Origin: Polytrichum commune
Taxonomy: Eukaryota; Streptophyta; Polytrichopsida; Polytrichales; Polytrichaceae
NCBI GenBank assembly: GCA_950295325.1
Contig: OX485809.1
Coordinates: forward strand, 25,978,001 to 26,042,000
DNA: 64,000 nucleotides
Direction of reading: 5' to 3'
Positions within the stretch are counted from its first letter, which is position 1, and every line of letters begins with the position of its first letter. Below the pieces are notes generated by a model, which saw only the letters and a list, made by a program, of their open reading frames with translations, had not been told where the DNA came from and did not search any database. The position numbers and the translations under genes are program-made. Shown here in pieces: positions 16,584 to 49,264 of this stretch.

Positions 16584-16781
16584 CAAAGTTTAAGCTCGTC
16601 CACGTCCAAAAACATTGAATTGAAAGGCGAAAAAATCTCAACCCGTCCCGAAACCGGTAATATCTATACAAGTTAAGTCTCCCTCAAGTTGGTACAAAAT
16701 TAGGAAAAAAGAACAGAAAAAAACGAGGATGTCGACATGTGACCACGGACATGTTAGGGACCTTGTGAAGAATCACCACTG

Positions 16782-18060: not shown

Positions 18061-18139
18061 TATGCGATTTGGCGGCTAAAGTACGTTTTGAGGAGGGATG
18101 GGCGGTATGATGGTATTAGGACGTAGCGATAAAAAATTA

Positions 18140-18660
18140 TTGGTACTTTGTAAGGTTCGCCCTATTGGTATGATAATTATTAGTACTTAGTAAGATATCT
18201 AAGTATTAGTGAGATAATTATTAGTACTTAGTAAGATATCTAAGTATTAGTAAGACAATTATTAGTAATTAGTAAGATAACTGCATATTAGTAAGATAAT
18301 TATCAGTACTTAGTAAGATAACTCATATTAGTAAGTTCATTATTAGTACTTATTAAGATAACTCATATTAGTATGATTGATATTATTTTTATTGTTAGTA
18401 AATTGTCATATTCACTCTATTGTTAATATTAGTAATATTAGTAAAAATGATTTATAGTGATTAATAGTAATTACCAGTAATAGTAACTAATAGTAACTAA
18501 TAGTGACTAGTAGTGAATAATAGTGAATGCTAGTGCTTCATAGGTCATTATAGTCATTAATAATGTTTAATAGTGATTAATAATTATGAATTACTAATGG
18601 CTGACTAGTAGTGATTTATAGTAATAATAATAATCACTTTCAATCGATAAATGGTAATAG
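18140..18660. repeat. AT-rich degenerate repeats (ttagtacttagtaagata type)
   Basis: Imperfect units of about 40 bp built from attattagtacttagtaagatatctaag run from about 18165 to 18390, then grade into tagtaatagtaacta-type simple sequence to about 18660. No coding content. Confidence 0.75.
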
Positions 18661-20040
18661 TATTGATAATGCTTAAAATAGGTTCATATTATAACATAGA
18701 TTCCATACTTTAACATTCTAGTCTGTAACATAGATTCCTATTATAACATACCAAAGTCAATTGCACATTCTCATAATATGCGTGTAAGATGCTCAATCGC
18801 GCTTGACATCAAGCATAGCTATGATTTCCAATTCCTTATTGATGAAGTCGTGAGCATCCATAATAGGCCCACTTTCACCATAGCCCATGAACTCAAGTTC
18901 GATTGTTCTCTTGTTTTCTCTTGGACTATGAACCATTAGAGTTCCAAGAATTCAAAATTTTAAATATAACATATATTATGGCAACGAAAATAATGGCATG
19001 ACATAAGAAGCGGCCATGGATACTTATAAAGCATCAAAGTTGCTGGCCATTAGAAATCATCACACATAATACTTGCCGCGCATAATGGGTACATGCCCAC
19101 CTCCCATACCCAATAAACCCTACTGGATAGGTAAATACTACTAGGAATGAACATAAATCGTTTAACATAAAAAAAAAAATTAGGCAATTTTAGCATAAAT
19201 CTCTTTGTGGCTTTGCCCTCACCCCCATGCATTGAGAATCACTTCATAACTTGGTTTTAAAGTCATTCTCCTAGCGTTTATTCTTGTAATTGTATCTTAA
19301 GTTATATTATTACTAGATTCATTATGTGCTCTTCATTGGCTAAGATTTTTGACGTTCATAGTCGACATCTAATATGAACACACATGCTTGCGATAACACA
19401 AATTCAAGAATGACCTTCTCAAAGGCACTAGAGTTATCATTTATCCCACTCAAAGTTTTGGGTGGGGGTTGGTTGTTTTGCATGCAACACATATGGACTT
19501 AGCCAAAATTAGCGGTCAACTAAAGAGAAAGGACTTTGGAAACTAACATATTGAAGTACAAGGTGATATGCAAGGCCGCGGGAGACATCGGAATCGAAAT
19601 CATATTGAGAGGATGACAAAGGAGGTGGCCAACGAGTGGGCCACATCAAGCACCACATGAATCTCGAGCAATATTGAGATTGCATCTCCATAACCATACC
19701 TCATCGATTAAAGGGAATTCTAAATGATGGCATAAGATTTACGGAAATGAGAACTTGAATAGGAAATGGGTCAAACACTTCAATGAATGAATTCATGTAA
19801 ATCATGTGTACTCTATGAATTGAATGGTTTGTGGAATCTCGTAAAGATACTTTAGCGAGGAGTAGGTTAGGAATACATAAAGTCTTGAGACTCTTTCAAA
19901 TTGAAATATTGAAATATAATTGAATAGAGGAAGAATAATACGTAGGTCATTCAATCCATGAAAGAGATAAAAATAACTCCATAAGTTATTAGAGATGAGA
20001 ATGATTTACATGCATGAACACTTAGCTTTGACATTAATGT
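18661..20040. other. Gene-free interval between elements I and II
   Basis: AT-rich sequence with no open frame of recognisable content, no palindromes of either type and no clear repeat ends. I see nothing to annotate. Confidence 0.5.
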
Positions 20041-20286
20041 CTTAGGGACTCGGGGGGGGGGGGGGGCACTGGCGAAAAACGTAGGAACTACGTGCGATAA
20101 AATATAGGGTCTTGTATAAAAATTTGGCGTAAAATTTGTAAAATTATTAGATGTAGTATAGGGTGCTTTGGGATTGTGAAACATGATTATATGTAATATA
20201 GCATTTGACAAAACATGATTAAATTACCTAAGTGGTACATATAAAATAGCATGGACAAAAAGCGATAGTTTCAAAAATTAAATACT

Positions 20287-20583
20287 TTGCCACCAAAATA
20301 TGGCATGTTCTATATAGGAAGGGTTCAAAAGATAAGGGTGAAGGTTGGTACTAAGTGGGGCAATTGTTGGCAACCCATTGACTTGATGAAACGTGCAGTC
20401 CAGAACGGAAATAGAGAGACGCTCTTCCCAACTACTATGGCTTACCTCCATTGGTTAAAAAAACAGCTGGGTCTCAACAAATATAAGTATGTTGAGAGTG
20501 ATTGTGTGTGGGTTGATGTGGATGCTATTCTCTCAACAGTGTCTCTAGTAACAATGAATCAACTAGCAAAATCTACACCTTAG
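20287..20583 (+). CDS. Unrecognised 98-codon open frame downstream of a poly-G tract
   Basis: Encodes a plausible globular stretch (WQPIDLMKRAVQNGNRETLF ... YVESDCVWVDVDAILSTV). It follows a G run at about 20051-20066 preceded by CTC, like the CTCGGGGGG end of the MITE at 39172, which also carries a short frame containing DPIDLMD. I do not recognise the family. It may be a fragment of a captured gene inside a decayed small element, or chance. Confidence 0.25.
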   Translation: MPPKYGMFYIGRVQKIRVKVGTKWGNCWQPIDLMKRAVQNGNRETLFPTTMAYLHWLKKQLGLNKYKYVESDCVWVDVDAILSTVSLVTMNQLAKSTP

Positions 20584-21088
20584 ATGAGGTAGATGCAAAC
20601 TCATTGAGTGAGTTCATTTCAAATAAAAAATAAAACCTGCTAAATTTGTACTATCTCACACATGTGGAGATATAATTTGGAGAAAGGGCTGAATGATCAT
20701 TAGTATACCTTGAAATCTGTAGTAGCCATTTCAGTTCGATTACCCTCATATCTCCCACATGTGTAAATGGTAGCCTAGCTAGTTTAGGTGGATTTTGCTT
20801 GCATGGCGTGGGATTTTCTACCAATGTGTAGGATTGGAAGATCAAGGCATCAATTGTAGGGCTTCTGCAAACCTTGTAAATGTGACTTTGAGACACATGT
20901 GGCTGGCCTGTTCTTTAAGACCTCAAGGTTTCTAACTGTGTTATCCAACACAACTTTCATTCGTTGGCTCGTGTTGCTTAATGACATGTAATTGCAATCT
21001 TTTGTTGTTATTGTTTAGTGTTTTGCTTTGCCCGGACTTCAGTGTGACCCTGAACCCTAAACCCTAGTAAATGTTTGTTTCTCTTACT

Positions 21089-21116
21089 AACACTATATTC
21101 GTTAAATTGAGACTTT
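21089..21116. repeat. Left terminal inverted repeat of element II
   Basis: Begins AACACTATATTCG and is the exact reverse complement of 37872-37899. Preceded by TACT (21085-21088), which recurs at 37900-37903. Confidence 0.8.
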
Positions 21117-21621
21117 CTCTAGTCTCAAATTAATATATGGATCAAACAACATGAAGATGCCTGAAACTATATTGTCAACAATCTCAAATATATTAAATGT
21201 TCTAATATCCCACACCTATGATGTGCGGACATAAGCACATATGGTAGAGCACTCAACACCAATTTCATCAACAAAAACACATTGGGTAGAGCACTCCAAA
21301 CAAGTTTCACCCAAAAATATATATATAATGATTTCTATTATTAGCATGCTCCATAGAATATAGACATTGCAACATACAAAGTGCATGTAATAAATGCATA
21401 TTTTTTCAATGGACAATTTAGTCCCAAACTTAATAAAAAAATGAACTTCACATTTGTATTGAAATATAGTAAATGGATATTCATCCAACTCCAAAACAAT
21501 ATAGTATTCGTAAGTTCTACCCAAACTCTGCCCTAATTTTGAAGAGCACACATATGAGTAATATATGTTCGTAGAATTACTGTTTACACTATAATCATGC
21601 TAACACAATCCTACCAACTTC

Positions 21622-24600
21622 TCATTCAACGTGGGTTGCTTCTTCTGCGATCCGAGCAAGGTTGTCTTTTGCAAAAGTTATGTACTTTTGAGGGATGGAC
21701 ACTGATCCACTATGATTTTTCCGTGGTTTCCATGCTATGAATATGGAATCTGTATCTACCCAAGATGGACCGTGCTCAGAATCCACCTTCCACCGAAAGT
21801 TAGGGTTTGTATCCCAGCCTGTATAATGCCGAATCACATCTTCATTCCTTCCGTCGGTCGGTAGTACTCCACTTGTATTTGTCGAAAATGAGGGCTGGAA
21901 GTTACAAAATTGGGATTGGACAAAGCTCTTGCCACCCACACTGGCTTCGCATATGTCTCGTCTCCAGGACGCAAAATGAGCATATATCCTTCATGACAAT
22001 CCACTGCAATGCGGAAAGATGGTGGCGGACGACTACTAGCAGGCCCCACGTAATGGTCGTCCACATCAAACTCCTCTCGAACCTCTCCATTTCCCAAAAG
22101 ACTAGCCTCTGAAGCTTGTACATCGACTCGTGTTTGTGGCCAAAATCCATGCCTCAAAATATGAGGGCTATCTTGGTGGAGGTCTACCAAGGCGGCACGA
22201 ACACGTGTCCAATAATGTATCCAACTCCCATAACGATGCCAACATGATCCGCCAACATCCGCTATCTTCAAACTCTCCCAATATTGTATGAAGCCTGATA
22301 TACCTTTCAAAATATCCTCCAAATTCTTCATGGCTATTGGCTTACAAGGGCTAGGCTCCCCATCCGGTAACATGGTCTTCCCATCCGCATCCACGCGCCA
22401 CACAAGAAGACCCTCCAGCGGGCTCCAGTCTTGTGTCGTGCACAACAACTTGTATTGCATGGCCGGGACACCATCGTCACGCATGTAGAACCGGAATTGT
22501 TGTGCCTTCGTATGCCCGATCAATCAGTGAGCTCCACTTCGAATATAAGGTTCTATAAATGCCTTGAAGTCTGGCACCTCCTCAATCATATGGGGGATGA
22601 CGGGAACGTTCTCCAAATCCATGTACGACTTCATCAATAATGGGATTGTAGGAAAATCCTCCTCCCGCAACTTCATGCTCCACCGCCCAAAAGATGCATC
22701 AATATCATCGTGCGTGTGGCCTACCAATAGGAAGGACACAAAAACCTCCTTGAAAATGCCTTTCGCAACCAACAACGACCAATATGCAAATACATATCTG
22801 CTTTTATTGTCCTTGGCACAATTGTCCAATTGGACACGCAAAGTTGGAGGCAACTTCTTGGCAATCACGGGTTCATTGGGTGGCTCGGGCAACGAATGCA
22901 AGCATACATCTTTTCCATCCAACACCGCTTCATATAAAGGTGTTGAACCCGTGTTCTCAAATAACAATCCTGAAGAATAGGCTGGTGGTTTCTCTAAATC
23001 ACGTAAAAGCCTTGCAAATGATCCTATCGTGTGGTTTGAATCCGCTGGATACAAATCAAGAGCATAATAAGCAAACTTGACATCACCGTGTCCATGTGCA
23101 ATCATTCCTGCAATGCCAACCCAACGTGATTAGCATCTATGTATGAATAAACCATTATGAAGGAATCCATGTTCTCCAGTACATCACGGAATAAAAAACC
23201 ACAACATTTAGGGTATGTCATGACATTGTTTCGAAGTTCACCTGTAACCGATACAGGCAACTTAAAAAACCCATCCGTGGCCTTGATTCGATTTGCAAAA
23301 CATGGGGAGGTTGTTTTGGCATGGTCCATTTTGTCATGGATGACCGTAAGAACCTCCAAGGGCCTGGAGATGGACAAAGCTCTATTTGTGTAGTAATCAT
23401 TACGGTGTGCCTCTTGCATGTTTACGTGCTTGAAATAGTTCAATTGATGCGCTGCATATGACTCGGTACCCATCGTGTGTGCATCCCGGAGGCGCTTCAA
23501 CTTCTCGCAATTAGAGCACCTGGCAAATTTGTCCCCTCGTCTTTTTGTAATGTATTCGCTAAAGTTTTGTTTCTTGATTGCACTTAATTTTGACAATGAA
23601 ATTGGCTCCAACCCAATCTTCTCGCCAACTGCATTAACGTCCAACAATATGTCTTTCCATTTTGTGCCTGTGGGAAGAACTTTCTCCACAACCTTTTCAC
23701 CAGTTGTGAGTGTGCGTGTTTTGTGCGGCATTGCATCAGCAAGGGGGACAATGATGGTTGCTAGAGTTGCCGTTGCTTGCCTTGTTGCTTCCCTAGGTTT
23801 CTTTAAACCCACGTTCCCATGGTGACGGGACCGGCGGCCTTCCTTGGCATAAGCAGCTTGTCTATAGAAGTCCGCCTTCGACACACCGTAAATGGTGTAC
23901 CATGCCTTACAACACACGTCTATGCTTTCAATGGTGATTACCTTGCGACCCGTCCCATTCACATGTATTGCCCTATGGACATCAAGTTTTTTTGTGGATC
24001 TTAGACGAAAATCTCCAAGCCACATTTCTTCACGGATGGCCTTCAATTTATCCCTTGGAAACAATTGGCAACAACAATGCACACAACAATCCTTTGTGGC
24101 AACTTCTCTTATGGACTCCTCCCCAAGCAGCCTTTGACGTTTACAATCAGTTGCAGATGGAGAAGGACGTGCCACAGTATCGTACTTTCTTTGACCCTTG
24201 CGTGGCCGCATGTTTGATTGCATTTCCTTTTCGAGTTGCATGTGTCGTTGCTCATGTTCATGCAAGCTAACTCCATCAGTCGTGACATTCCTCAATGGCC
24301 ACCTGCGGAGGGAGAACCTATGAGTGGGATCCACCTCAGAAGGAACGAGTGACTCCAATATGACAATCCCAACGTCCTCGGTGCCAAGCGGATTTTGATC
24401 AATGCAATCTTGTGGATGGGTGTTACGACAGATACCCTCCGCCACAACAACCCCATTGTCATTAAGAAGTAACACATCCAAATTCACCCATGAAGCTCTT
24501 GAAAGCACGGCACACTCTGGAATGGGACAGTCCGGTACGGAACGCGAAGGTATATCGAAATGCTCTTCATCTGAACTCTCATCCATAGTAGCCTCCCCGA

Positions 24601-24685
24601 CAATGTCTAGCTCTTCCTCAGATGCAGATGGCCAAGTGGCCATGTCTTCTCCAGACGAATACCCTCTTCCAGTATACCCATCCAT
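21622..24685 (-). pseudogene. Gene 1 of element II: DUF7869-type probable transposase, inactivated
   Basis: Exon 1 24685-23242 and exon 2 23107-21622, intron 23241-23108, closely similar to the intact gene at 12984-16052. All three acidic motifs (HDKMDHAKT, LDNCAKDNKSRY, GHTHDDIDASFG) are kept. Exon 2 has a TGA at 22526-22524 where the intact copy has an arginine codon (GAH*LIGHTKA), and a frameshift near 21845 after EYYRPT. The downstream frame is still homologous to the end of the intact protein. The stop lies after the third acidic motif, so a truncated product would keep the putative catalytic core but lose about a third of the C-terminal exon. An in-frame ATG at 24745 lies before the acceptor and is less likely the start. 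Confidence 0.75.
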
Positions 24686-24877
24686 TTTGCCTACACACAT
24701 GAACATGGAACCTTGTAAAGAATTGACAAAAGCTATAGGGTCCAATAGAAAAACACAGAAACCTTATCATAACACATGTTGTATGAATATTATATCGATG
24801 GGTTCCAAAAAGATGGAGCGCACAACAGTTTATTCAGGATCCGTCTATGCACATCCCCATTGTGTGCATGAGGGTGG

Positions 24878-25379
24878 GTTTGGGTCGAGCAACCCAAACC
24901 TCGTGACAGGATGGGCCTGCTAATCCAGGCCCAACCCCTGACAGGGGTGGGTTTGGGTCGCTCGCCCCAAACCTCACAATGGAGGTGTGTTTGGGTCGTG
25001 CGACCCAAACCTCATGACAGGATGGGCCTGGCAATCCAGGCCCAGCGCGTGATAGCGGTGGGTTTGGGTCGCTCGACCCAAACCTCATAATGGAGGTGGG
25101 TTTGGGTCGAGCGACCCAAACCTCGTGACAGGATGGGCCTGCTAATCCAGGCCCAACCCGTGACAGGGGTGGGTTTGGGTCGCTCGACCCAAACCTCACA
25201 ATGGAGGTGTGTTTGGGTCGAGCGACCCAAACCTCGTTACAGGATGGGCTTGCTAATCCAGGCCCAACCCGTGAGAGGGGGTGGGTTTGGGTCGAGCGAC
25301 CCAAACCTCGTGACAGGATGGGCTTGCTAATCCAGGCCCAGCCTGTGATAGGGGTGGGTTTGGGTCGAGCGACCCAAAC
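24878..25379. repeat. Nine palindromes in 111-bp higher-order units upstream of gene 1 (element II)
   Basis: Starts at 24878 (AG), 24951 (CT), 24989 (TG), 25062 (CT), 25100 (AG), 25173 (CT), 25211 (AG), 25284 (AG) and 25358 (AG). Spacing alternates 73 and 38 bp until the last units. The 73-bp spacer holds gacaggatgggcctgctaatccaggcccaac. AG and CT are one dinucleotide seen in two orientations, so neighbouring sites tend to be inverted relative to each other. Confidence 0.9.
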
Positions 25380-25559
25380 ATTCCGCAAATTCCGCCTTAA
25401 ATTGCGGTAATCTTCCATATTCAGCTACGTGGATACTAATTGGAAGAATTCAGGCCGTGCATGGCTGTTGTAATTAGCTACTCATCAACGGATGCATACA
25501 CGAACCTTGCACTCCACCACTACTTGAGAGAGCTTGCAACCATTTCAGAATGGAGAGAT

Positions 25560-25760
25560 GAGAAAAAAGGAGCAAAGTTTGGGGGGTTTGGTACTTTATA
25601 CTACCCGCCTCCGCCTTGGCCTTCCTCTTTGGATCCCTTTCCCGCCCGAACGTAAACCCTAAACCTAAGTTCAAACCTTCTGACAGAATTTCCCGCTTCT
25701 TGTTGGTAATAGAGCATCCATATTTAGCTTGCCTCTTCGTGGCGCCAACCATCAAATGAC
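25560..25760 (-). promoter_or_regulatory. Conserved core promoter with TATA box, gene 1 of element II
   Basis: The TATAAAG box (25600-25594 on minus) and flanking blocks match the promoter region of element I (11334-11475). The coding start is about 0.9 kb downstream at 24685. Confidence 0.65.
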
Positions 25761-28700
25761 CTTGGACAACTAACCTCCTAATTCCGCTATTAAATAACTA
25801 CACAAAATATGATGTGTGGATTTGATTATATGTAGTGTTGTTACCACCAGTGTCCGAAAAGTTTTTGAAGTTATTGAGGTTAATTGCCTACCTCTTTAAA
25901 AGGGCATAGGCTATTTCCCTCATGGCATAGGTTGCATCCTACAATATCAAATTTTTGTAAGTTGAAAACCTTTTGAGTTTTTAAGTTACCTGCCAATTGC
26001 CTTTAAAACTAATTTTTAGTAGGTTAAAATCCTTCATATCTTTTAATGTTGTAGGCTTTAAATTCAAAATTTGAGTACTAAGTGGTATCCTTGGCAGGAA
26101 TTGAACCTGGCTAAGCCCTTCACCACGTTTGAAGGCCAAGGATTAACCAACTCCTTTTTAAAGAGTTGATTATAAGTTATGAAAGGTTGCTAAAATTCAA
26201 ATGAGTTTAAGGGTGAAAGTCCTCACCATCTTCTGATTCAACCTCTATGCGGTGATGGGGCTTGGGCTGTGGTATTTGTAAAGATCGACGGGGAGGGAGT
26301 CAGGGCTATTATTGATATCCGCCTATGTGCCACTCAAGAGCCCCGAGTATTAGCCTAAAGATATGTACTTAGGCCAACTAATTTCCCAATTTGAAGAAGG
26401 ATTAATGGCTAAAATCCGCTCTTTTAAAAACTTTGTAGGCAAAATTTCCTACATGTTTTTTACCACATAGGTTGATATCCTATGTTTTAAAATTGTCCAT
26501 AGGCTCTTTGTCCTACACTTTCAAAATTTTATAGGCTAAGTCACAAATTTTGTAGGCTGCATTTACACTAGCCTTAGGCTCTTGGCGGACTATGGTTACC
26601 ACCCTTACATGCTCAACATTAATTTTCAATCCTATGACAGTTAGTGTTAGAAGTAAATGTGTTGCTACCTTCTACTCTCACGTATATTTCTTCTTTTCAC
26701 ATCCTTACTAACACTAAATTCAAACATGTCAATGCCACATATTACTATAGCTTATATTTAATGTTTATTACTTTCATATGGTTATTGATATATTGTGTAT
26801 TCACTTGTATTTAGTGTATCAAACACTAAATATCATACTTATTGTAGTTGTGTTTTGTACCTATAGTTTTTATTGATTTGGTTTGCCAAAAAAAATGTAA
26901 TCAACTTTATTTGTTTTAACAAATGTTTGATGAAAAATCTAAACATATATAGTTGTATCTATTCAATGCAAGTTGAGCAGAACATGTCCTTAAATACATG
27001 TTGGTGTGTTCTAGTGTCACTACACTAAATAAGATATTTAGAGATTTATACACTAAATATGAACACATCTACGACGTAACATAACATACATAACAAACAT
27101 AACATGAAATGTAACCAACGTTCATGTTCATGAATTAGACTATTGTGATATCTATATACATTTGTTTTTAGAACCACAAGCGACTTGGCCCCCTCATTTG
27201 ACCTATGCGCCATTCATTTATGGCTTCGAGTGCAACAAGACACATTTATATACCCTAAACCCTAAACCCTACACCCTACACCCTACACCCTACACCCTCG
27301 TAGTTGTTCAGGGTTGCTTCCCACGGGTAGGTCACTTAGTGCATTTTAAAAACGACGTGCGGCATAATATAGAGAGGATTGAAATCATTTGAAATAAAAA
27401 TTATAAAGGAATTCCAAATAATGAAGGGGCCATTAAATGTAGACAATCCCATTATAAGTAAGTTAGATGGACATAAAATGTGGGCCATTATTTTTTTGTA
27501 AAATTAATATAGGGGCTGAAGATAAGGTTCCTAGAAGGTATGTTTAGTATAATGTTTGCTATGGTCTCCTATGTGTTTTCTTCATAACTTTGTTTGCAAT
27601 GATATTATTGTTTGCACCCTTCTTTGTTTCCATGGTTTCCCTTAACAGGAAGTAGATTAGCTTTTATTACTTAAAAGGAATATAGAGTACAAAAAATTGC
27701 AGTGACTTGGACAATATAAGTAATGGAAGGGTGCAAACAAATGGGCCATTTTTGAAATTCAAGTAATTATAGGGAGGCTTTAATTCAACCCTTGAAGGTA
27801 AATAGCCCCAAAACAAAAAACCCTGAGCCGCACGTGGTGCACAAAAATGCCTTAGAGTGACCTACCCGTGTGGCTTCCATATAGAACACCATCTACTGTA
27901 ATTTGTGCCTCATTTCCTAATAAGATATGTTGTTTAATATATGTGGAGGGATCATCCAACAACAAAGTGATTGCTTAAATGGCTTCATATAATGTTGAAC
28001 TCCACATATTAGTATTTGATAGCTTCATATTTGTATACATGGTGCTTCTCTCATTTACTATCACTATATTCAATATTTGTAGACTTTATCTTGTCTCAAC
28101 TAAATATATGAACAACAACAACATTGTCTAATGTTTGGGTCGTCCTACCTAAACCATCTTCATATGAGTTCTTAATTGGGTTCTTCAGCAAAAACACCCG
28201 CTTCAATATATTTGTATCTCATAAATATGTAAACTTGTAAATAAGTATGTTAATGTTCCATCATGCTATAAATCAAACAACATCTTTGTTGCTTTTCGCA
28301 AACAACAATGATATTAAGTTGTCAACACTTAATATTGCATAATTCCATATTATAATGAATGACACTACATAAACTTGTATAATTAGATTTAGTTCAATGG
28401 TATGTGTTAACGGATCCATCGTAGGCTATAGCATTGTCCTTTACCAACAACCTTCATAGATAATTACAATATATAACTCGAAACCATTCATTGTGTAAAT
28501 GGTTACCATAGTTATATTATTCCATTATGTAATTGCCTACGAGGATTGCAATATAATTATTAAATACTCCTCTTAGTCTAGTATCTATCATTCTCGATTC
28601 ATGCATATGTGTAGATTACTAAAATTACAAAACCAATACAGTTTCATTATTTGATATTAGCAAATCCATCGGGGGACCATTAAATTAAAAACCTTAGGCT
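25761..28700. other. AT-rich central spacer of element II
   Basis: No gene recognised. Telomere-type CCCTAAA/CCCTACA units at about 27252-27298. A stretch beginning CACTATATTC at 28062 resembles the left 65 bp of the element itself, and 28133-28230 resembles the 3' flank of gene 2 (37715-37830), so a fragment of a related element may be nested here. A tRNA B-box-like motif occurs on minus near 26100. Confidence 0.45.
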
Positions 28701-28759
28701 ATAAAGGTTTTTTAGTATCCTCAAGGATGGTATGGGATAGGTGGCTAAAGGATACCCAC

Positions 28760-29790
28760 CTGCGAGGCCTATCGACCGTCGATGGGCCTGGGGCTCTCCA
28801 ATGGCTCAGATTGTGTATTCGTTTGGGCCATGGAGCGCCCCGTGACACGTGGCGGCCATGAGCCGAACGGACACGAAAGGCGCCGGCCCGAATGGGTCCC
28901 GCCCTTGAGTGACCTTCCCCCTTTCACTCTCCCCTCCGCACTTTCTCCTTCTCTCTCCTCCGCTCCAAGCTCCTCCTCCTTTGTACGTTCCTCATACTTT
29001 CTGGAGGCGCCGCCGCTCTTGAAAGCGCCGCCTCCTCCCTTGCATTCTCTCTCTCCTTGTCGAACTCGCATTCCCTCTCTCCTTCCCTCTTCATCATTAT
29101 CTCATTCTCTCTTTCACTCCTCCTCTTCTTTTGATCTATTTTGTTGTTCATTGAGTGCGCATTGACCGAGTTCTGAGTGTAGTATGAGTTTAGGGTTTGT
29201 TTTTGTATTAAAGTCTATACATTTTAGCCATTTCAGAACGTCTTTGTTGTTTTGGAGTGTGAGTGTTGTTTCAAAGTGGTTGTGTCAGTTCCTCCTGGTC
29301 TTAGAAACATTCATGTGTGAGTGTAGAGTGATTTCGGAATTAGAATGATTGTTCGGAAATCAGGATGCATGTGTGGCCTTCAGATAGCTTCTTTGTTCAT
29401 GTTTGTAAACACTTGTTACATTCAGAGTGAATGTTTGTGAGGGATTGTTTAATTCTGAGTGAATGTTTGTGAAAGCTTCTTCAATTCAGAGTGAATGTTT
29501 GTGAGGCGTTCTTAGTTTTCTGATATCCAATCCTTTCTAGAATCAGCTTCCAAGACTAGCTTGTTAGAACTGCTTCCAACAGCAGCTTGTTGTGTAGTTT
29601 GCAAAGCAAGGTGATTTCTTCAACTTCTTTATGTGTGTCAATTTCTTTAGAGTTTCGCAGCATCTACAATGCATAAGCATTGTATATGCTGCGTAAACAC
29701 ATTATAAAGGTCTCTGGAATCAAAAGTGTTTCGAGAGACGACCCAAACTTCAGTTTGAAACCCTAAAACACTAAACTCTGCAGCTGGTTT
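28760..29790 (+). promoter_or_regulatory. 5' leader region of gene 2 (element II)
   Basis: A GC- and CT-rich block (28780-29150) is followed by a leader with repeated gtgaatgtttgtgagg motifs (29410-29510). It contains GCATAAGCATTGTATATGCT (29669-29690), shared with element I. The 127-codon frame at 28782 is Ser/Pro/Leu low complexity and is more likely untranslated leader than protein. Confidence 0.4.
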
Positions 29791-30416
29791 GGGTAGAGCG
29801 ACCCAAACTCTCCAGCTGGTTTGGATCGTTCGACCCAAACCATAAGCATTGTTTGGGTCTAGGGTTTAGCCAAACTCCGCATCAAATGTTCATTTATAAT
29901 TAATTTAATCATCATCTTGGGTGAATATCTAACCCTATCGACCCAATCCATCTGCAGAGTTTGGGTCGCTCGACCCAATCCATCTGCAGAGTTTGGGTCG
30001 TTCGACCCAAACAGCGCATGAAATGGTAATTCATAATTTAGGTAATCATCATCTTGGGTATGATCTAAGGCCATAGCCGATCATTCCATACCGCTACAAA
30101 GTTTGGGTCGAACGACCCAAACTCTGCGTAAATTTTTACTGCTTACGAACAATACTTACACTTATAAACAACAACTCAAACACCCAAGCAATAATGAAAT
30201 GACCCACAACTAGAACACTAGCTCGTGATGATTGTTGTATCCATGAACTTAAAGATTGGTTTTCGTAGCCAAATAATATATTATTCATTAGCCATTGTAG
30301 GCACAGGTTTGGGTCGTTCGACCCAAACCTGTGAAAAGTAACCCCATATATAAATGTTACTAAACCCAGACATAAGCCTATATGATTTGAAAGAGTTTGG
30401 GTCGCCCGACCGAAAC
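29787..30416. repeat. Seven dispersed palindromes in the leader intron of gene 2 (element II)
   Basis: Copies at 29787 (AG), 29819 (TT), 29959 (CT), 29991 (TT), 30101 (AA), 30307 (TT) and 30395 (CC), some with one arm mismatch. The AG acceptor at 30439-30440 directly precedes the ATG, so all lie upstream of coding exon 1. Confidence 0.88.
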
Positions 30417-30440
30417 TAACATATGTATTTCTACTTGCAG

Positions 30441-31769
30441 ATGCCCCCCAAGAAAAGACCTGGAGAACGATGGTTCAAGCCGGCACCAGACGCGATCTGG
30501 CAGGAGCACGAAACTCCTAAAAACCAATCCTACGTAGCAAAAGAAGACCTTGTAATTGCATGGTCCTTTCTTGTAGTAAAGGCAGCTCAATTCAAAATCC
30601 TCCTTGTTTTGAAGGTTGGCACGGAGGAGCAATACACATGGGATGCTTTGACGGGATGGGAGGTGGCATCAGTTCATGCTCTAGGAGAGCACGTTGACGT
30701 CATCCTGGAAAACTCTTCTCTGGAAAATGTGCACATGTTCATGCATGAGCAAGCCGAGCCATTCGATCCGGTATACGTGAAGGAATCCTGCGCTGAGCCA
30801 GACATTGTTAAACCGGATACAATCTTCATAGATGCGATCATTTCAAACACGAAGGTTGCAACCAGGTTCACTAAACTTAAGCAGGCAATCAACGCAATAA
30901 ACAAGACCCAGCAAAGCAAGTCAAAATCTCAACAAGCTGTGAGGCGCAAGGCGACTGCTGAAGAGGGCGCAGGGTCGTCAAGACCTCAAACAGTGAGGAA
31001 GCCCCGACCGGTTCCAGCTGACTCGAGGAGAACAACACCTACGGCAACTCCTGCTGATAGTGAAACACCGACGCCATCACAAAGCCGGCAGACGACACCA
31101 TCTAAAAGGCCGAGAGAGTCAGTATCTGCCATGACAGATGAGCCTGTTTCACCGGAGCTACGTATGCCCAAGCCCGGGGAAGGAGTGGAGCCATCGGAGA
31201 TCCAGAAAATACTCAACAATTTCGACACCAAGTGTTTACATTGTTTTTTCATGGGCAGAGAATTCAAGTTTGATGTCAACATCGCACAATGCCACCTAGC
31301 GCCACCAGAGAAGTGCGTTCGGGCAAAGGAAGATGCGTATGTTGATTGGTTAATCGCCCAGATGGTGAGCGACCAGTTTAAACATGATAGGCAGACTATT
31401 GTTGTCATGCCTCAGGGACACAAAAGAATGCCTACACCGGATATGTGGCCTTCTATAGAGAAAGGCGATTTTTGGCTGATTGACAGTCAGCACAGTGTTG
31501 AAGCTTCAAAGAAACTTCAACTGATGACGGAGTGGAATGATCCTAATGGTCTAAAGGAAAAATTGAAGGTATGGAAGGCATTGGTCGTGTGGTCGGACGA
31601 CGAAACCCGGCTGAGCGATATCTCCCGCTATTTCAACATGAATAACAAGAAGCGGGCATATCAAGCTTCTTGGATTAGGAACATCATGGCATCGCGGGAT
31701 GTGTGGGAGTTCTACGGCCGGCCTCCCAAGGAAAGGGAGAATGCAAAAGACAAGAATCCAAAGTGGGAG
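30441..31769 (+). CDS. Exon 1 of gene 2 (element II): ParB/DGQHR-like domain
   Basis: 443 codons, ATG right after the acceptor CTTGCAG, ends WE|GTGAGC. Closely similar to exon 1 of element I (MPPKKRPGERWF start). The motif here is WLIDSQHSVEASKK, with Ser in place of Gly, so the DGQHS signature is altered in this copy. A Thr/Pro/Ser-rich, basic linker precedes the domain. Reading past the donor runs into translated palindrome repeats (FGSLNPN and similar), which supports the splice position. Confidence 0.6.
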
Positions 31770-31792
31770 GTGAGCATTGTTTCTCAAACAGA

Positions 31793-31934
31793 GTTTGGGT
31801 CGCTCAACCCAAACTTTGGGTTTCTTCATACAGTTTGGGTCGCTCGACCCAAACTTTGCGTTTCTTCATACAGTTTGGGTCGCTCGACCCAAACCTTGTG
31901 TTTCTTCATACAGTTTGGGTCGCTCGACCCAAAC
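31793..31934. repeat. Four 40-bp tandem palindromes in intron 1 (element II)
   Basis: Starts at 31793, 31833, 31873 and 31913, all centre CT, spacer tttgngtttcttcatacag. Wholly inside the intron 31770-32042. Confidence 0.92.
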
Positions 31935-32042
31935 CTTGTGTTTTAGTTTGTGTTTGTCTACGCAGTTTGTTGTTCATCATTTTTCTTCTTTGTTTGGAAA
32001 CAACATATTAAGAATTAACACGCATTCTATGCTCTTGTGCAG

Positions 32043-33374
32043 CTTTTCAAATACCAAATGATAAACAAGTTCTCCTCAATTGACAATTCAAGTCACAAGC
32101 AAAAGAAGTACAATGAGCTAAGAGGAGAGATCTAGTTGATTACATCATCCGACATGGTTTGGCAGAAGTAGAAGACAGTGTTTGAGAAACACGAGACAGG
32201 GGATCTCATGGATCCTGACACATGCAACCTCTTCAACTCGTCCTCTCGATTCAAGGCGATGAAGCCTCTCATGAGAGAATTCTTTAGAAGTCTGCAGGGT
32301 CTTTCGGAGGCGGAAATGGGGAAGGCGGCAACGCACATCTTGCACAACAACCCGACCCCTAAGAGATTTTGGGTGTACCCCAAAATAGTCTTCACCAAGC
32401 CGAAATCCTTTGTTCCTTCATGCTACACAATGAAGGAATGGGCGGAGAATAGGAAGAAGAAAACAACGATCGTCCAGGAGCTGTAGAAGCTAATCCCGGA
32501 AAAGAACATTTTTGTCGATGACGAGGTGAACGAGGTGAACTGGAGAGCGTTCAAGGCTGAATACAACTTCACCAGTGCATCCATGGCAGCTCTGATCAGG
32601 GAGGCAGGAGAAAACTTCCTAAAGTCAAAACTGGTGAAGGGTGGGAAGAACCTGGCTCTTCCAGAACACTCGACGCGTGCCTTCTCGAACTTTATAAAGG
32701 AGAAGAAGATTGTAAGTTTTGAGGGGGATGCGCATTTCAACCTTGTCGCTTTTGACCCTATTAAAATCCAGGGATGGCCCGGCCTTGATTCCAGGAAAGA
32801 AATACGAGTAAGAGCAGCGGACCGGTTCCCCTTTGGTATAATAGACTTCCGGAGCATTCCTGGGAGTACGTTTGAGGGCACAATGGGTACACCCTTCTAC
32901 GAGCCCTTCATGTCGAAGTTCGTGGAGTATGCAAGCCCTAAGCTTAGGGAGGTCGATATGTGGCTGTGGATAGTAGAGGATAGGAGAGCAGAGCAGGTGT
33001 ATGAAATTGTGAGGAAATTGCAGCCTGAGTATGCGGTGTCTAAGTCTCACTACATTGCTGCACCGGCGGAGGGGGTGTACACGACACTAAAGGACAAGAA
33101 AACCAAAGTCATGAATTTGTTGTGCTTGTACTTTGTGTTCAAAGCAACCTTGCTGAAGGTGGAGAACCACCCCATAACCCAGATGCAGAAACTATTCCAA
33201 GTTCCAGAAGGCCTGGGCGCAAGTAAGTCCCTCTACGACGAGGCAAAATATGCCATATACCATTCGGACGAGTTGCGGATGGAATTCTATCTCCGAATAA
33301 TGAGGGCCTTGACGAGAAGAGGGGACTGTATATTCAACGTCTTCGGCGGCACCAAGCCCGTCTTCGCTGGCATG
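32043..33374 (+). pseudogene. Exon 2 of gene 2 (element II): methyltransferase-like domain with three TAG stops
   Basis: 444 codon positions, same length as in element I. TAG codons near 32133, near 32168 and at 32484 interrupt the frame; downstream the frame 32526-33374 stays open to the donor. The end RRGDCIFNVFGGTKPVFAGM keeps the SAM-motif-like GD...F.GG pattern. The catalytic-motif position reads YEPFMSKF here and YDPFLSKF in element I, so the acidic residue is not strictly kept. The length without indels suggests the stops are recent. Confidence 0.55.
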
Positions 33375-33403
33375 GTAAGCTCATTACCATAATTGTTTTC
33401 ATA

Positions 33404-33497
33404 GTTTGGGTCGAGCGACCCAAACTAACACCGATGCTAGTTTGGGTCGCTCGACCCAAACTAACACTGATGCTAGTTTGGGTCGCTCGACCCAAAC
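33404..33497. repeat. Three 36-bp tandem palindromes in intron 2 (element II)
   Basis: Starts at 33404 (AG), 33440 (CT) and 33476 (CT), inside the intron 33375-33596. The period is the same as in intron 2 of element I (36 bp), but the centres differ (AT there). Confidence 0.92.
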
Positions 33498-33596
33498 TAT
33501 AACCTTTGCAATTGATATTAGGTCTTGTATGTACTTCCCCTTTTCGGTGGAATCACATGTTATGCCATATAATAACATCTGGTGGGATTTCTGCAG

Positions 33597-35096
33597 ATGC
33601 TGGGGCTGAACGTGTACAGCTATGTAGACCTTAATGACATCCAATTCTACAAGGCCCAAAAATCATTGGCGAAGAAGATGGATATACTAGACTGGATCCC
33701 TGGGAGCTACGCCGAGGAGACTGTTGAAGGGGGTGAGAGCCCGCTGGATAAGGCGAGGCGTGTCAACCCTGAAGAATTGGCCATAAAGGTTCCAGTTGCT
33801 GTACCAGAGCCTCTGGTCCAAGTGCATCCAGGCACATCCTCTCGGCGACCGCGTGACGAGGAGGGGGAGGAGGAGGAGGAGGATGAGGAGGTGGAAGAGG
33901 AGGAAGAAGAGGCTAACGTGGAGGGCGAGGTCGAAGAAGGGGGAACAGGCTTCACTCAGGAATCTGAAGCCCCTCAACGAAAGAAGGCAATGCGGGTAGC
34001 AACTCCACAAAGTAAGTTGGTGCCCGTCCTGACGGTTGATGATGCCCGCAACATGTACTCCAGGGATGCGACTGCCGCGTTCAGGGAGAGGAGGAAACTA
34101 AAAGGCAAGAAACTCTATGGCGACTATGCCATCGAGGAGACAATTGCCATTAGCAGCGAAGACGAGGACGACATGGAGCTCGCGAAACGGCTCAGGTCGG
34201 ACCCTCCCTCTCCAGGTGCCTTCGCAGGGATGGTGAAGGTGAAGCCGGAAGTCCTCACCGTGCAAGAAGCCAACGAGAAGATGTTAAGGGACGAAGAACA
34301 ACGCGTCCGCTTGCAAAAGGCCGTTGCTGAAGAACCCTCAGTGCGGAACGAAGTCGCAGAGCTAAGGGCTCTCTTATTGGAGCAAGAGCGACTGCGGGCA
34401 TTGGCGCAACCTCCAACTAGTGCGGACTTGATCACGCAAGTGATTCGAGGCATGTGGGCGCAGGGTTTGGTGGTAGCTCCCCCGGGCTCATTTCCACACT
34501 TGCCCCCCGGCTTCCCTCCCCAGAACATTCCTCCGCAGCCCGTGCCGCAATCCTCCTTCAGCTTTCAGCACATGGTTCCCCCCCACGTCCGTCCGTATCC
34601 GCCGGTTCAACAAGCGGATGACCCCAATATATGGCGCCTTCCCGGGTCTTCTAGACCTGTGACCCCCCCACCACTTCGGCCGCCCCTGGTGATCCCCCCG
34701 CCCCATCAGCAGGACGACCCCCACATGTTTGGGTTGTCCGACCCAAACCCGCCCCCCCTTACAGTGCAACAAGGCCAATCTCATGATGCACGAGAGTTTG
34801 GGTCGGCCGACCCAAACCCCGTTACCGCTCAGTCTTCAATGGACCAGCATGGGTCTGAAAGAGACACACCCATGCCTGATGTTGAAGGACCTCGAGGGCC
34901 TGGTGATACCTCTACTCCTATCCCAATCGATGAACCTATGCATGATGCACATGCGGAGGTTGGGTTAGGAGAAGGTCCTGACACTGAGCGCTTGCAGGAG
35001 AGGGGTGCTGACATCGTCGGAGAAGGCGGTGGCGAGAGAGAACGACAAGCGGAGGCGGTGGAGGCTTCCATGGCGTCCAGGCATGACCAGGGAGAG
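33597..35096 (+). CDS. Exon 3 of gene 2 (element II): end of methyltransferase-like fold, acidic/SIM-like/coiled-coil linker
   Basis: 500 codons, phase 0 both ends. Opens MLGLNVYSYVDLNDIQFYK, which continues the SAM-binding fold from exon 2. Then a poly-Glu tract (33860-33930), the block KKLYGDYAIEETIAISSE with acids after it (possible SUMO-interaction motif, 34125-34170), a Glu/Arg/Leu coiled coil (34270-34410) and a proline-rich tail. Palindrome-derived peptides FGLSDPN (34727-34748) and FGSADPN (34796-34817) sit at the positions matching those in element I. Probably a flexible nuclear linker; no enzyme motif. Confidence 0.6.
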
Positions 35097-35118
35097 GTAA
35101 TACACTGAGACCTCCTCA

Positions 35119-35140
35119 GTTTGGGTCGCTCGACCCAAAC
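35119..35140. repeat. Palindrome in intron 3 (element II)
   Basis: One canonical copy, centre CT, 22 bp after the donor; intron 35097-35586. The matching intron of element I has its copy at 427-448 with centre GT (AC in gene orientation). Confidence 0.9.
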
Positions 35141-35586
35141 TCCTGGTCTATTGTCTTGTTGCCGTGGTCATGTCCCCCCTAGCTAGGAGGAACTGCCCCC
35201 ACCCCGTCCATCCGCTCTCGCATCCCTTCAGCCCCCCCCCCCCGACGATCACTAACGTCGCCCGTCCCACGATTTTACTCGAACTTGGAGGCGTGCACAC
35301 AATTTTGTAGATGTTGAATTAGGATAGTTTGAACGGATCATTCAACGCGGCTTCGCACCCCTAGGCATTTTGTACATAGAGCATTGCAAACAATAAAATT
35401 ATTATTTTGTGCCCTTATGTTTGTTTTCGTGTTCAAATGTATATTTTTTCCTCTTGCCCCCTCTTGCATTTGTATGGCCGCCTATGCATAGTGGTTCTTG
35501 TATTTTTCACAGAAAATATTGTATTCACTTTAAGTGGACATAGCATGACATAGTCTTCCCCCGCCTTATGTCGCTCGTCTCCACAG

Positions 35587-36399
35587 GGATCGGAGCATAG
35601 CGTCGCGGCTCCCCGCCGGGCCTCTCCAAGAAGCGAGGAAAGTAGCGCGATGGTCCCCCCCATTTTACCCGTTCCACCTTTGCCGCCTAAGACCCGGTTC
35701 CTGGTGTTAGACCTCAACGGGGTCCTCGTCCAATGCGTTCATTGCCCGAGGACCCCCACGGTGCCCTTTTGCAAGCCCGAGGACGCGAATTACGACAGGC
35801 CGCCCACGTTCATAAAGAGCAAGCTAATTCACCTCCGCCCGTGGCTTCGGACCTTCCTCCAGATCGCCCAACAACGATGGTGGGTGGTCGTGTGGAGCTC
35901 CATGAAGGCCGAGAACACCAATGCAGTCGTGGAGTTCATTTTCAAGGGCATCGAGCCCCCCTGCATGGTCCTAGCACAGGAAGCCTGTAGAATATTGTAC
36001 ACACCGGACGGCAAAGTCGTCAAAAAACCAAACAACCCCGCTTCCCCCCAATACCTCAAGGTCTTGAAGCCCATTTTTTGGGACCAGCGTCCGTCATTGA
36101 TAGGTGTCCCCTACGACGTCCGTCCCACCCGGGAGAACACGCTCATGGTGGACGACAGCACCGCAAAGAACATGTTGAACCCGACGGCCAACTTAATAGT
36201 TTGCCCTACGTGGACGGTCGAGAAGGTCCGGGACCGATTTTTGTTAGACCTTAGTAAATACCTCCAGGCGCTCAGGGGAAGCGGACTACCTGTAAACAAT
36301 TTTGTTAGGAATAATCCGATAGGCGAGAGATACTTGGATCCACGAGACCATTTGTACAGAGAGTTGTTCTCTCACGCGAAATTTAACAAGCTCATTTGA
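35587..36399 (+). CDS. Exon 4 of gene 2 (element II): FCP1/NIF-type HAD phosphatase-like domain
   Basis: Follows acceptor CCACAG and is in frame with exon 3. About 20 linker codons lead to MVPPILPVPPLPPKTRFLVL, then the HAD motif I DLNGVL, motif II VVVWSSM, a lysine region (YLKVLKPIFW) and motif IV MVDDST. This is the order of FCP1/small-CTD-phosphatase (NIF) proteins, which dephosphorylate serines of the RNA polymerase II tail and other proteins. The second Asp of DxDGT is Asn here (DLNG), as in some plant NIF-like proteins, so catalysis is doubtful. The frame could instead start at the ATG at 35650 as a separate gene, but the phase-0 join favours a fusion. It ends at TGA 36397-36399. Confidence 0.65.
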   Translation, partial: GSEHSVAAPRRASPRSEESSAMVPPILPVPPLPPKTRFLVLDLNGVLVQCVHCPRTPTVPFCKPEDANYDRPPTFIKSKLIHLRPWLRTFLQIAQQRWWVVVWSSMKAENTNAVVEFIFKGIEPPCMVLAQEACRILYTPDGKVVKKPNNPASPQYLKVLKPIFWDQRPSLIGVPYDVRPTRENTLMVDDSTAKNMLNPTANLIVCPTWTVEKVRDRFLLDLSKYLQALRGSGLPVNNFVRNNPIGERYLDPRDHLYRELFSHAKFNKLI

Positions 36400-36403
36400 G
36401 GCA

Positions 36404-36407
<4 letters not shown>

Positions 36408-36434
<27 letters not shown>
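36408..36434. repeat. (TG)n microsatellite after exon 4
   Basis: About a dozen TG dinucleotides, 10 bp after the stop codon. GT steps in it could serve as a donor for a downstream exon. Confidence 0.9.
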
Positions 36435-36438
<4 letters not shown>

Positions 36439-36544
36439 CGCCCGCCCACTTTGTGTAATATATGCTTCATATGTATCTTGATTTTCACGCGCTCTAGCAA
36501 ACCCTCTTCCTTTGGGTTTTGTTTCGTTTCCTTTTTTGCGCCAG

Positions 36545-37347
36545 CGTTTGGAGCCCTCGATTGACATCGTCAGCGAGTCAGAGTTGGGGAGCTTCTTCTA
36601 CGAGACCGTTTACGACGCCGCGTCAACCATTGACTACTCCAAGGAGCCTATTGACGCCGGCGTCGTCGATAGCCCCCCACCCAAGCAAATCTTACGGCGA
36701 TCTCCGTCCCCGTCGCCGCTCAAGGGCATAAATCGCAAATGCGTCCGGACATCCCCCTCTCGGCCCGGCGGAAGTATTACACCTCAACGGCGGCTGCGGA
36801 TGGACGCACGGCCAACGAAGAGTGGAACCCTTCCTATTCCTTTGCGGGACGCCTTGCCCCTCCTTGCCAACTCCGATGGGAACGCCCCCGGTGACAAGGT
36901 GAACCCCCCCCCCTCTCTAAAACATGGTTAATCGCGCATTACAATCATTTTGCACTTAAAAAATGATCGTGTGACACGTTTGGGTCTTCCTCCCTAAACT
37001 AACACATGTGGTCTTGCAATGACGCGTTGCAGGTTGCTCCCACCCGTAAACCTATGCGGTCTAGTGCGTCCATCGAGTTCGAGCGTATGTACGCCATGAC
37101 CATAAATGCGAGACAATCCACTTCATCGTATTCGAATTCTTTGACGTATATTTCGGGCGGCCGATGGACTCCAAAATGTCTTATGGATGGCGGTCACCCC
37201 AAGAATGGCTATAGTCGCGGGGCGGAGATTTTCAGGAATGTTGAAGCAATGCGAGCAAAAGAAGCCGCAGCAAAAGAAAAAGAGGCAAAAGAAAAAGATA
37301 AAAAAGATAAAAAAAGCAAAAGAAAAAGAGGCAATCTCCGAGGCTAG
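36545..37347 (+). CDS. Possible 3' exons of gene 2 or a small separate gene (element II)
   Basis: Two open blocks, 36545-36898 and 37033-37347, join in phase 0 (GACAAG|GTGAAC ... TTGCAG|GTTGCT). The first starts right after a CGCCAG acceptor and reads RLEPSIDIVSESELGSFFYE, then basic Ser/Pro-rich sequence. The second ends in a highly charged Lys/Glu tail (KEKEAKEKDKKDKKSKRKRG), nuclear-localisation-like, and TAG. Codon phase matches the rest of gene 2, so they may be its last exons with the TGA at 36397 as a mutation; no domain is recognised. The intron between them holds a decayed palindrome at about 36979. Confidence 0.4.
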
Positions 37348-37439
37348 ATAGGCCATAGTAGGCGTAGGGTTTTGGGCCATAGGCAACATCATTTTGGGTC
37401 GCACTATCCAATGTATGTGTGGTGTTAGCATGCTATGCA

Positions 37440-37740
37440 TTTTACATGCCATACTTTGTATGTTTTTTTTGCAATAATATAAGTGTCACATGATTTCCCC
37501 TTCAATATGGTCCAAGGTTTGGATTGCCCTAACTAAACCATCACAAATATGAGTTTGGAATATTTTGTATGTTATATTATATTGGTTCACATAGTTCCCC
37601 TTCAATATGGTCTAAGGGTTTGGAGTGCCCTACCTAAAACATATTCATACAAGATCTCATATTTTGTGTGCGATAATATGAATGTTTTAAGATTTCCCCT
37701 TCAATTTGGCCTAAGGTTTGGATTGCGCATCCTAAACAAT
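37440..37740. repeat. Three about 100-bp tandem units in the 3' flank of gene 2 (element II)
   Basis: Units are anchored by ttcaatatgg at 37501, 37601 and 37700; each carries a decayed palindrome of the form GTTTGG..TG....CTAAAC. One further copy of this sequence is at about 28133. Confidence 0.75.
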
Positions 37741-37871
37741 CCCAAATATGAGTTATTAATGGGGTTCTTGTTCTAAATACCCGACACAAAGTGTTCGCAT
37801 CTTACAACTTTCTCCAATATGTGTTCCATTTATCCTTGTTCTTATTTATGTGAATGTCTCAAAATGCCCAA

Positions 37872-37899
37872 AAAGTCTCAATTTAACGAATATAGTGTT
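37872..37899. repeat. Right terminal inverted repeat of element II
   Basis: Ends CGAATATAGTGTT, exact reverse complement of the left end, followed by TACT at 37900-37903. Confidence 0.8.
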
Positions 37900-37903
37900 T
37901 ACT

Positions 37904-39163
37904 TTGTACACGTGCTTCTAACGAGAATTCTACTGTATCATACACTTTAAGGAATGGGGGCAATCAGGGGGGGAAAATTGCATATAAGTAATATAGGGTA
38001 CCATAAAATCAACCATCCAAGAATTTATAATTACCAATAGGGTGCAAATAATCACAACAATTTACCATTATTTCAAAAATTAGCATCCCTTATAATCCTT
38101 TCTCATAGGTAAATAGCCCCCATTTTAATAGGTCATTATCGCAGGTGTATGCAAAATATACAAGGGAATCCCCCCCCCCCCGAGCTTAGGGAACATCAAC
38201 TTGAATTCTAAAGGCACTGACTCACTTAAGAATTATTGGACAAGGATATCATATTGAGATTGGAAATTAGTAAACATATGATCACAGATCCTCAACATAG
38301 TTCACATGCCAACCCATACCCCATTGTATGCCAGACTATCTCTTCATATGTGAACGCTACATGAGGTATAACTTAGAGCCATGTCATGATGATGGATGAG
38401 TTCATCCATTGACCTTCTCATGTTAGCAACTTGTGATGCAACATTGTCATGGATGATTGCTATATTGTCTACTGTGATATAGTGATAACGTACATGTTCA
38501 TATTAAACGGTTTTGTTAATTCCCACTACATTCCCAAGGGTAAGATGCTTAAGCTCACTATTGGCAAGTGTCATGTGTTTCATTTTAATATTTAAGAGGA
38601 ATACATCCTTAAGCATACTAATGGCATGTCATGTCAAGATTTTAATAAGTGCACTCAAACACCCAGTGTCATGTGACGACACTTACGGTGTTGTTGTTAA
38701 TCTGCAATATAACATAGCATACCCTTCAAAATAGGGGTTTCCATTACTGTGGGTTTTTCATCTGTATATTTGGATGAAAATCCAATCTAAGGCAAGGAAA
38801 GTACAATAATATTACAGTGGGCCACACTAAAAATGAACAACAGAACTTAGAATAATATAAGGTTTCAAAAATGGCAATGGACATCTTTAAAGTACTATAG
38901 GGTATGGAAGAATATGTAATTTGGAATTATATGAAATGCAAGGCTTTTTCTATTAATCCAAGGTTGAAAATGCTAATGAAATAAATAACCCTAAACCCTA
39001 AACCCTAAACTCTAAACCCATTAGTGTGGTAGTCCACTTAGTGTCGGACCTTACTAGTTGCTCGCCATCTATTTGTGTCCTACTCATATGCAATTAGGAG
39101 TCTAGTAACAACTAATTCTCTTTTATCGCGCATCCATGTGCAAACAACCACTATTTTATATGG
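37904..39163. other. Gene-free interval with dispersed repeat and telomere-type units
   Basis: No gene recognised. The stretch 38820-39000 is repeated at about 46345-46520 and, inverted and partial, at about 39930-40070 and 48360-48530. Telomere-type CCCTAAA units at about 38990-39021. A C run at about 38169-38180. Confidence 0.55.
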
Positions 39164-39171
39164 GGTTATTA

Positions 39172-39906: not shown

Positions 39907-39914
39907 GGTTATTA

Positions 39915-43440: not shown

Positions 43441-43446
43441 GGGGGG

Positions 43447-49260: not shown

Positions 49261-49264
49261 GACC

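Follow-up and report, generated by a model that had tools for sequence, protein, structure and literature searches.

Anti-silencing of the VANC type, which is sequence specific, has been reported for Mutator-like elements (MULEs) of Arabidopsis, according to the available text of PMC5735166 and PMC10398659. In PMC5735166 the motifs of these VANDAL elements are specific to each family and make up fast-evolving tandem repeats, found in noncoding DNA 5' to the transposase gene and within introns. The locus described here is a 64,000-nucleotide stretch of the genome of the moss Polytrichum commune (assembly GCA_950295325.1, contig OX485809.1; C7:25978001-26042000), referred to below as the window. 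It contains a 16.8-kb DNA transposon, element II (21089-37899), of a family designated F1, with a DUF7869 gene (gene A) and a large second gene (gene B). Each DUF7869 family sampled has its own palindrome. This finding was absent from the first-pass annotation of the window; the genome analysed has 408 Mb in 64 contigs.

The F1 dyad, GTTTGGGTCGnnCGACCCAAAC, is a palindrome of about 22 bp with near-invariant arms and a variable centre, and it occurs 9,231 times in the genome against 0 for the reversed control. Exact matches in the window are confined to the interiors of element II and of a related copy, element I; the window copy has 18, and 11 full-length copies contain 18-31 each. Palindromes were sought de novo in the stretches upstream of ten further DUF7869 genes, hand-picked for differing frame lengths from 150 listed of 1491 candidates. 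By a strict test, nine of the ten loci have three or more palindromes with an arm in common; the tenth, L052, scores 2, yet has 37 sites of the F6 type at no more than two mismatches. Five control stretches score 0 or 1. Palindromes arising by chance can be rejected, since the reversed controls gave 0 occurrences and dinucleotide shuffles (20 per locus, ten loci) gave at most one shared palindrome against 2-10 observed.

Besides F1, the dyads comprise F3 (CCCACGGGTGnnCACCCGTGGG; loci L053, L054, L059, and also the window's third DUF7869 element), F4 (TTTACGGACGnnCGTCCGTAAA; L055-L057), with 1,147 occurrences genome-wide and 0 for its control, F5 (TTTACGAACGnnCGTTCGTAAA; L058) and F6 (GGTGAGGCAnnTGCCTCACC; L050-L052). 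Comparison of 13 element loci revealed that every class is restricted to its own family, except that F4 loci have three or four sites also passing as F5 at two mismatches. No dyads of the five classes were found in three non-element stretches or in L060, where a different, 27-bp palindrome (CAGTTTAGCTCGACTCGAGCTAAACTG) lies about 0.5 kb before the DUF7869 gene. The centre is variable in F1, F3, and F5, and mostly CG in F4 and TA in F6; near-invariant arms around a variable centre, as in F1, F3, and F5, are what would be expected of a site recognized by a dimer.

The dyads lie where the VANC-like layout has its family-specific arrays, before the transposase gene and within introns. Of 27 exact dyads in F1 copy b (17271 bp), 14 lie 5' of gene A and five 5' of gene B, in both cases no more than 1.5 kb away; by the predicted exon limits, four more are in gene B intron 1, one in intron 2, two in the coding sequence of the third block and one beyond it. 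The first and last dyads of this copy are at 3864 and 14484, and none is in the 28-bp ends. Subterminal sites of the TnpA kind can be dismissed, as no dyads are near the termini. Among the first 50 F4 dyads on contig C1, 16 are 5' of gene A, 17 are 5' of gene B, three are in intron 1, two just after exon 2, and 12 fall in none of these places, mostly for want of a listed gene pair nearby. Placement is kept between F1 and F4 while the dyad sequence differs. Many dyads are arrayed in tandem, the repeat period being 32-111 bp. The first 100 F1 sites in the genome listing span a 2.16-Mb stretch, and 77 of them are in three elements (one with a single exact end and an assumed length) that make up 2.4% of it; the other 23 are in clusters without an exact end.

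Element II had been annotated as a complete unit with perfect 28-bp ends and a TACT duplication, and this description holds. The arms (ends AACACTATATTCG) are 100% complementary, and the empty-site check suggested for the TACT join gave an exact result. The host site is inside a transposon copy of family F3; an F3 copy on contig C2 matches both flanks at 98.4-98.9% without interruption, and its empty allele corresponds to the joined flanks minus one TACT, identical at 60/60 bases. Element II, with the inverted ends and fixed-length duplication of a cut-and-paste DDE transposon, is confirmed as a complete DNA transposon. The copy in the window is probably non-autonomous, because gene A has a TGA (22524-22526) where copy b has CGA and a further frame change, and the second block of gene B is broken by a stop between 32483 and 32487.

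The proposed genome search for the terminus recovered 672 exact 28-mers (330 forward and 342 reverse; reversed-letter control 0). The 90 exact ends on C1 form 34 inward-facing neighbour pairs less than 65 kb apart, 21 of them at 14-20 kb, against a mean of 9.6 and a maximum of 18 in strand shuffles; 22 of the 90 ends lie outside any such pair. The occurrence of this terminus at other boundaries had been named as grounds for rejecting the unit. Among 40 full-length left ends, 33 have a correctly oriented right end within 65 kb among the 40 right ends listed (23 spaced at 16.6-20.2 kb, with a maximum spacing of 60.8 kb), and seven have no partner in that list. The two-ended unit is the rule, and some ends are single.

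Target duplications of 4 bp are exact in 19 of the 22 copies examined (11 full copies, the ends of 10 more, and element I), and these 19 differ in sequence among themselves. The exceptions are one copy with a single mismatch (GCAT/GTAT) and two copies with swapped flanks. The latter are inverted copies about 0.6 Mb apart (C4:4509972-5139957), flanked by TAGT/CTTG and CTTG/TAGT; since swapped 4-bp flanks match the product of such an event, they indicate an inversion of about 0.6 Mb on C4 by recombination between the two transposon copies. The 11 full copies are 99.1-99.7% identical, which points to a recent transposition burst of F1. Element I, reported at first pass as having the same layout reversed, is indeed a related F1 copy; its far end is 2.3 kb left of the window, and its complete length is 18,893 bp, including a solo long terminal repeat (LTR).

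Genes A and B are divergent in element II (A on the minus strand, B on the plus strand), and both gene regions are present in all 11 full copies, with various frame breaks. When copy b is compared with element I, six of the seven coding blocks have a ratio of nonsynonymous to synonymous substitution rates (dN/dS) of 0.08-0.21; in the seventh, the first block of gene B, dS is saturated. Both genes are under selection. Family F4 has 53 places with a gene B homologue (53 of 1860 candidates scored; 73-79% to protein P0126 in the first block) and 81 with gene A (81 of 1539 candidates scored). For 43 of the 53 gene B places the nearest listed neighbour within 30 kb is a divergent gene A, at no more than 10.2 kb in 41 cases; one has a gene A on the same strand and nine have no listed gene A. 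Because of these 43 places the pair is real, both genes being part of the mobile unit, as the first-pass annotation had maintained. In F6, a gene B-like segment, 28-30% over 93-94 amino acids (E-values 3e-5 and 7e-5 against P0122 and P0126), lies in an open frame that diverges from gene A, and the relatives of this gene B candidate are seven unnamed proteins.

Gene A is very likely a DDE-type transposase, since its structure model has an RNase H-like fold with an acidic triad, as in such transposases; the label of transposase candidate is thereby strengthened, and DUF7869, a Pfam domain of unknown function, gains a likely role. A putative intron lies at 23199-23108, judging by its GT..AG borders and the comparison with element I. 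The exon 2 region is a single frame of 499-502 amino acids in 8 of the 11 full copies. No match was found among PDB sequences. Among the proteins related to gene A, those with a named source come from Ceratodon purpureus and Physcomitrium patens, and a more remote one from the liverwort Riccia sorocarpa, which fits a moss host. DUF7869 was absent from 14 control genomes, and none of 60 pattern stretches in viral contigs was confirmed. In contigs of prokaryote genomes 3 of 50 were confirmed, one being L060, a 4327-bp sequence from a cyanobacterial genome bin whose DUF7869 gene is 52% identical to a Physcomitrium protein; L060 is apparently plant contamination of that bin.

Three labels had been given to gene B, and they fared differently. 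The HAD-like one is supported by a Pfam NIF match (Table 1), though the NIF part could be a gene of its own, in which case gene B would be two genes. For the methyltransferase label, 49 of 50 rows in the fold comparison of the second block are methyltransferase entries, although the model is of low confidence. The catalytic motif of beta-class (MT-A70/N6A/N4C) methyltransferases is (D/N/S)PP(W/Y/F). In the register deduced for gene B, DFR(N/S/T)(I/F)P is present at this place in seven of eight homologues, the seven that cover it, and this replacement speaks against an active beta-class enzyme. This part of gene B may therefore retain a methyltransferase-like fold, with the catalytic motif lost. 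For the ParB label, the motif DGQH occurs in all three first-block homologues that cover it, and no ParB or DndB profile match was found in Pfam or NCBIfam. A weak DUF6551 match (E-value 0.03) was obtained for P0126 alone. Gene B has no match among PDB sequences and just two unrelated ones in NCBIfam (E-values 0.15-0.23), and profile scans of this accessory protein for DUF1985 and DUF287 were negative.

In F1, a cut-and-paste plant transposon, a dimer of the gene B type, bound to the dyads, quite possibly counters silencing of the element's own promoters. In this tentative scheme the DDE-type transposase of gene A would act on the 28-bp ends and yield the 4-bp duplications. Gene B would provide a large protein of several domains, part of which goes back to a methyltransferase-like fold that no longer has the catalytic motif. 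A protein encoded by the element, with gene B the likelier source than gene A, would bind the dyads as a dimer and would keep or make the promoters active against the host, as VANC does for VANDAL. As families diverge, protein and dyad would change together, so that every family addresses itself alone. An element-encoded dimer is favoured because the layout matches that of VANC targets in VANDAL elements; the mobile unit, the gene pair, the selection on both genes and the family-specific dyads, kept in place in two families, are observed, and the identity of the binder and the anti-silencing effect are what we infer. A more specific proposal, which we regard as possible and rather doubtful, is re-addressable recognition: a dimer combining dead methyltransferase-like, DGQH/ParB-like and HAD-like domains would open copies of its own family via a 22-bp dyad found at promoters and introns of that family alone, a VANC-like system in bryophytes independent of MULEs.

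Half-sites and gene A diverge roughly in step: F1-I and F1-II share 79% of amino acids and 10/10 bases, F4 and F5 71% and 9/10, F1 and F4 57-61% and 6/10, and F3 and F6 share 1-5/10 bases with the rest. Several observations weigh against a gene B-type dimer acting on the dyads. L060, at 38% gene A identity, has 8/10 half-site bases of F1. The structure model of gene B is poor, with a predicted local distance difference test score (pLDDT) of 43. No gene B of F3 was recognized by profile within 12 kb upstream of the gene A read on C2; an open frame beside the F3 dyads of locus L049 had no profile match, and we do not claim it as gene B. Among the 11 recent copies, conservation of the dyads does not exceed that of the remaining noncoding sequence (0.0039-0.0046 against 0.0026 minor alleles per base). 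Their CpG sites decay slightly faster, at 17/1184 (1.44%) compared with 118/13423 (0.88%) elsewhere in the element, while non-CpG transitions are equal (0.30% and 0.32%). Judged by CpG decay, the dyads do not appear protected from germ-line methylation, and because their CpGs decay faster, any openness of the dyads is not visible as reduced decay.

The main rival, which we consider unlikely, is that the gene A transposase itself binds the dyads as operator or enhancer sites, for autoregulation or in a transposition complex, and that gene B does something else. It agrees with the presence of dyads 5' of gene A in all five sampled families, including F3 with no profile-recognized gene B, and, L060 apart, with the parallel between half-sites and gene A. 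The lack of dyads in or near the termini argues against it, as does their presence at the 5' end and in the introns of gene B. It is improbable that host proteins, be they transcription factors or parts of the silencing machinery, bind the dyads and that the families have settled on different host sites. Palindromic sites are common among host transcription factors, and the promoter and intron placement fits regulation, but host factors would hardly account for 9,231 and 1,147 copies of two long dyads with 20 specified bases or for the concentration of F1 sites in three elements, and host sites are not expected to diversify alongside a transposon's own protein. Least probable of all are passive palindromes expanding by replication slippage or hairpin formation with no binding protein, as the tandem arrays and the missing conservation signal among recent copies might suggest, because elements I and II repeat one set of 20 specified bases, around a varying 2-bp centre, in flanks and array units that are otherwise unrelated, and positions are kept between F1 and F4 despite their differing sequences.

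The remainder of the window consists largely of other mobile sequences. The segments 16584-21088, 37900-51952, and 62950-64000 are remains of one copy of F3, the third DUF7869 family, which was invaded by element II and by an LTR retrotransposon, and probably by element I too. This retrotransposon (51953-62949) lies inside the F3 gene A, has LTRs of about 1.9 kb, and encodes gag, protease, reverse transcriptase-RNase H, and integrase in one frame of 2086 amino acids; the solo LTR of element I (about 554-2828) is related to it. Inside element II, an unpaired end-like sequence at 28060-28099, with seven mismatches to the 28-bp terminus, follows TTTACT and is present in all 11 full copies; it is perhaps a relic of a related element's end within F1. 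Telomere-like 7-base repeats form short arrays, internal to the chromosome, at 27252-27298 and 38987-39019.

Table 1. Coordinates of element II and related features in the window.
Feature	Position	Strand	Basis or remark
Element I, related copy in opposite orientation, remainder left of window	1-16583	-	TTTG duplication; same palindrome
Target duplication, left copy, TACT	21085-21088		sequence and empty site
Left terminal inverted repeat, 28 bp	21089-21116	+	arm comparison; 672 exact ends genome-wide
Gene A coding region	~24763-21622	-	
Gene A exon 2 (C terminus, including most of DUF7869)	21622-23107	-	open frame and profile match
Gene A exon 1 region, 553-amino-acid frame, start codon not fixed	23200-24763	-	open frame, element I comparison
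Palindrome array GTTTGGGTCGnnCGACCCAAAC 5' of gene A	24877-25379		
Palindrome cluster 5' of gene B	29787-30417		
Gene B coding region	~30420-36931	+	
Gene B first block, low-complexity stretch and DGQH/ParB-like motif (DSQH in window copy)	30420-31790	+	block end inferred
Palindromes, gene B intron 1	31792-31934		
Gene B second block, terminal methyltransferase-like fold (predicted)	32037-33392	+	DFR(N/S)IP instead of catalytic motif
Palindromes, gene B intron 2	33406-33499		
Gene B third block (continuation, with a low-complexity region)	33576-35108	+	open frame
Two palindromes inside third-block coding sequence	34727-34748, 34794-34819		
Palindrome just past third block	35118-35141		
NIF/HAD-like block, last domain of gene B or separate gene	35554-36399	+	Pfam NIF, E-value 2.8e-15
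Last plus-strand coding block	36482-36931	+	dN/dS 0.16, copy b against element I
Right terminal inverted repeat, 28 bp	37872-37899	-	arm comparison
Target duplication, right copy, TACT	37900-37903		sequence and empty site

In a literature search covering mostly non-subscription papers, no paper naming DUF7869 was found, and the results listed contained nothing comparable on palindrome-bearing DNA transposons of mosses or palindromes in Physcomitrium. The DNA transposons discussed in the available part of PMC7466625 are Mariner-like. As far as checked, a DUF7869 transposase combined with such a second protein and with re-addressed dyads has not been described before. A second, unrelated lineage with the VANC layout and a different protein would, if true, suggest a general strategy. 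The five dyad families, two of them with matching gene pairs, are a ready set for studying shifts in the target of a DNA-binding protein, and the sets of dyad and protein are possible tools to address chosen loci in plant genomes.

Among known superfamilies, Sola in Repbase has 4-bp duplications and a DDD-type transposase. F1, with its 4-bp duplications (exact in 19/22) and its probable DDE-type transposase, resembles it in these general features; we know of no accessory gene or dyads in Sola. CACTA/EnSpm elements have CACTA termini, 3-bp duplications and subterminal TnpA motifs, which are short repeated protein-binding sites. F1 resembles them in its large size, its short repeated motifs and the CACTATA within its terminal inverted repeat; it differs in ending with AACACTA, in its internal dyads and in its DUF7869 transposase, and membership is rejected on the different ends and on duplications of 4 bp rather than 3 bp. 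Assignment to piggyBac or Kolobok, with TTAA duplications, fails on the varied sequences of the 19 duplications. VANDAL elements are MULEs with a MULE transposase and duplications of about 9 bp; F1, with DUF7869 and 4-bp duplications, is not a member. The fungal KDZ transposons with TET/JBP genes, as the available text of PMC12730594 describes them, are likewise DNA transposons with a companion gene related to DNA modification, but the F1 companion is methyltransferase-like and not a TET/JBP dioxygenase. With VANDAL/VANC, on the accessible part of PMC5735166, F1 shares a second element-encoded protein and family-specific noncoding motifs that precede the transposase gene and also occupy introns. 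It differs in its DUF7869 transposase, in an accessory protein of another kind, without DUF1985 or DUF287, in its plant lineage, and in having 22-bp dyads where VANDAL has 9-base motifs in one orientation; in F1 anti-silencing is putative. As a mobile element, F1 is a DDE transposon, and its strategy appears to resemble that of VANC.

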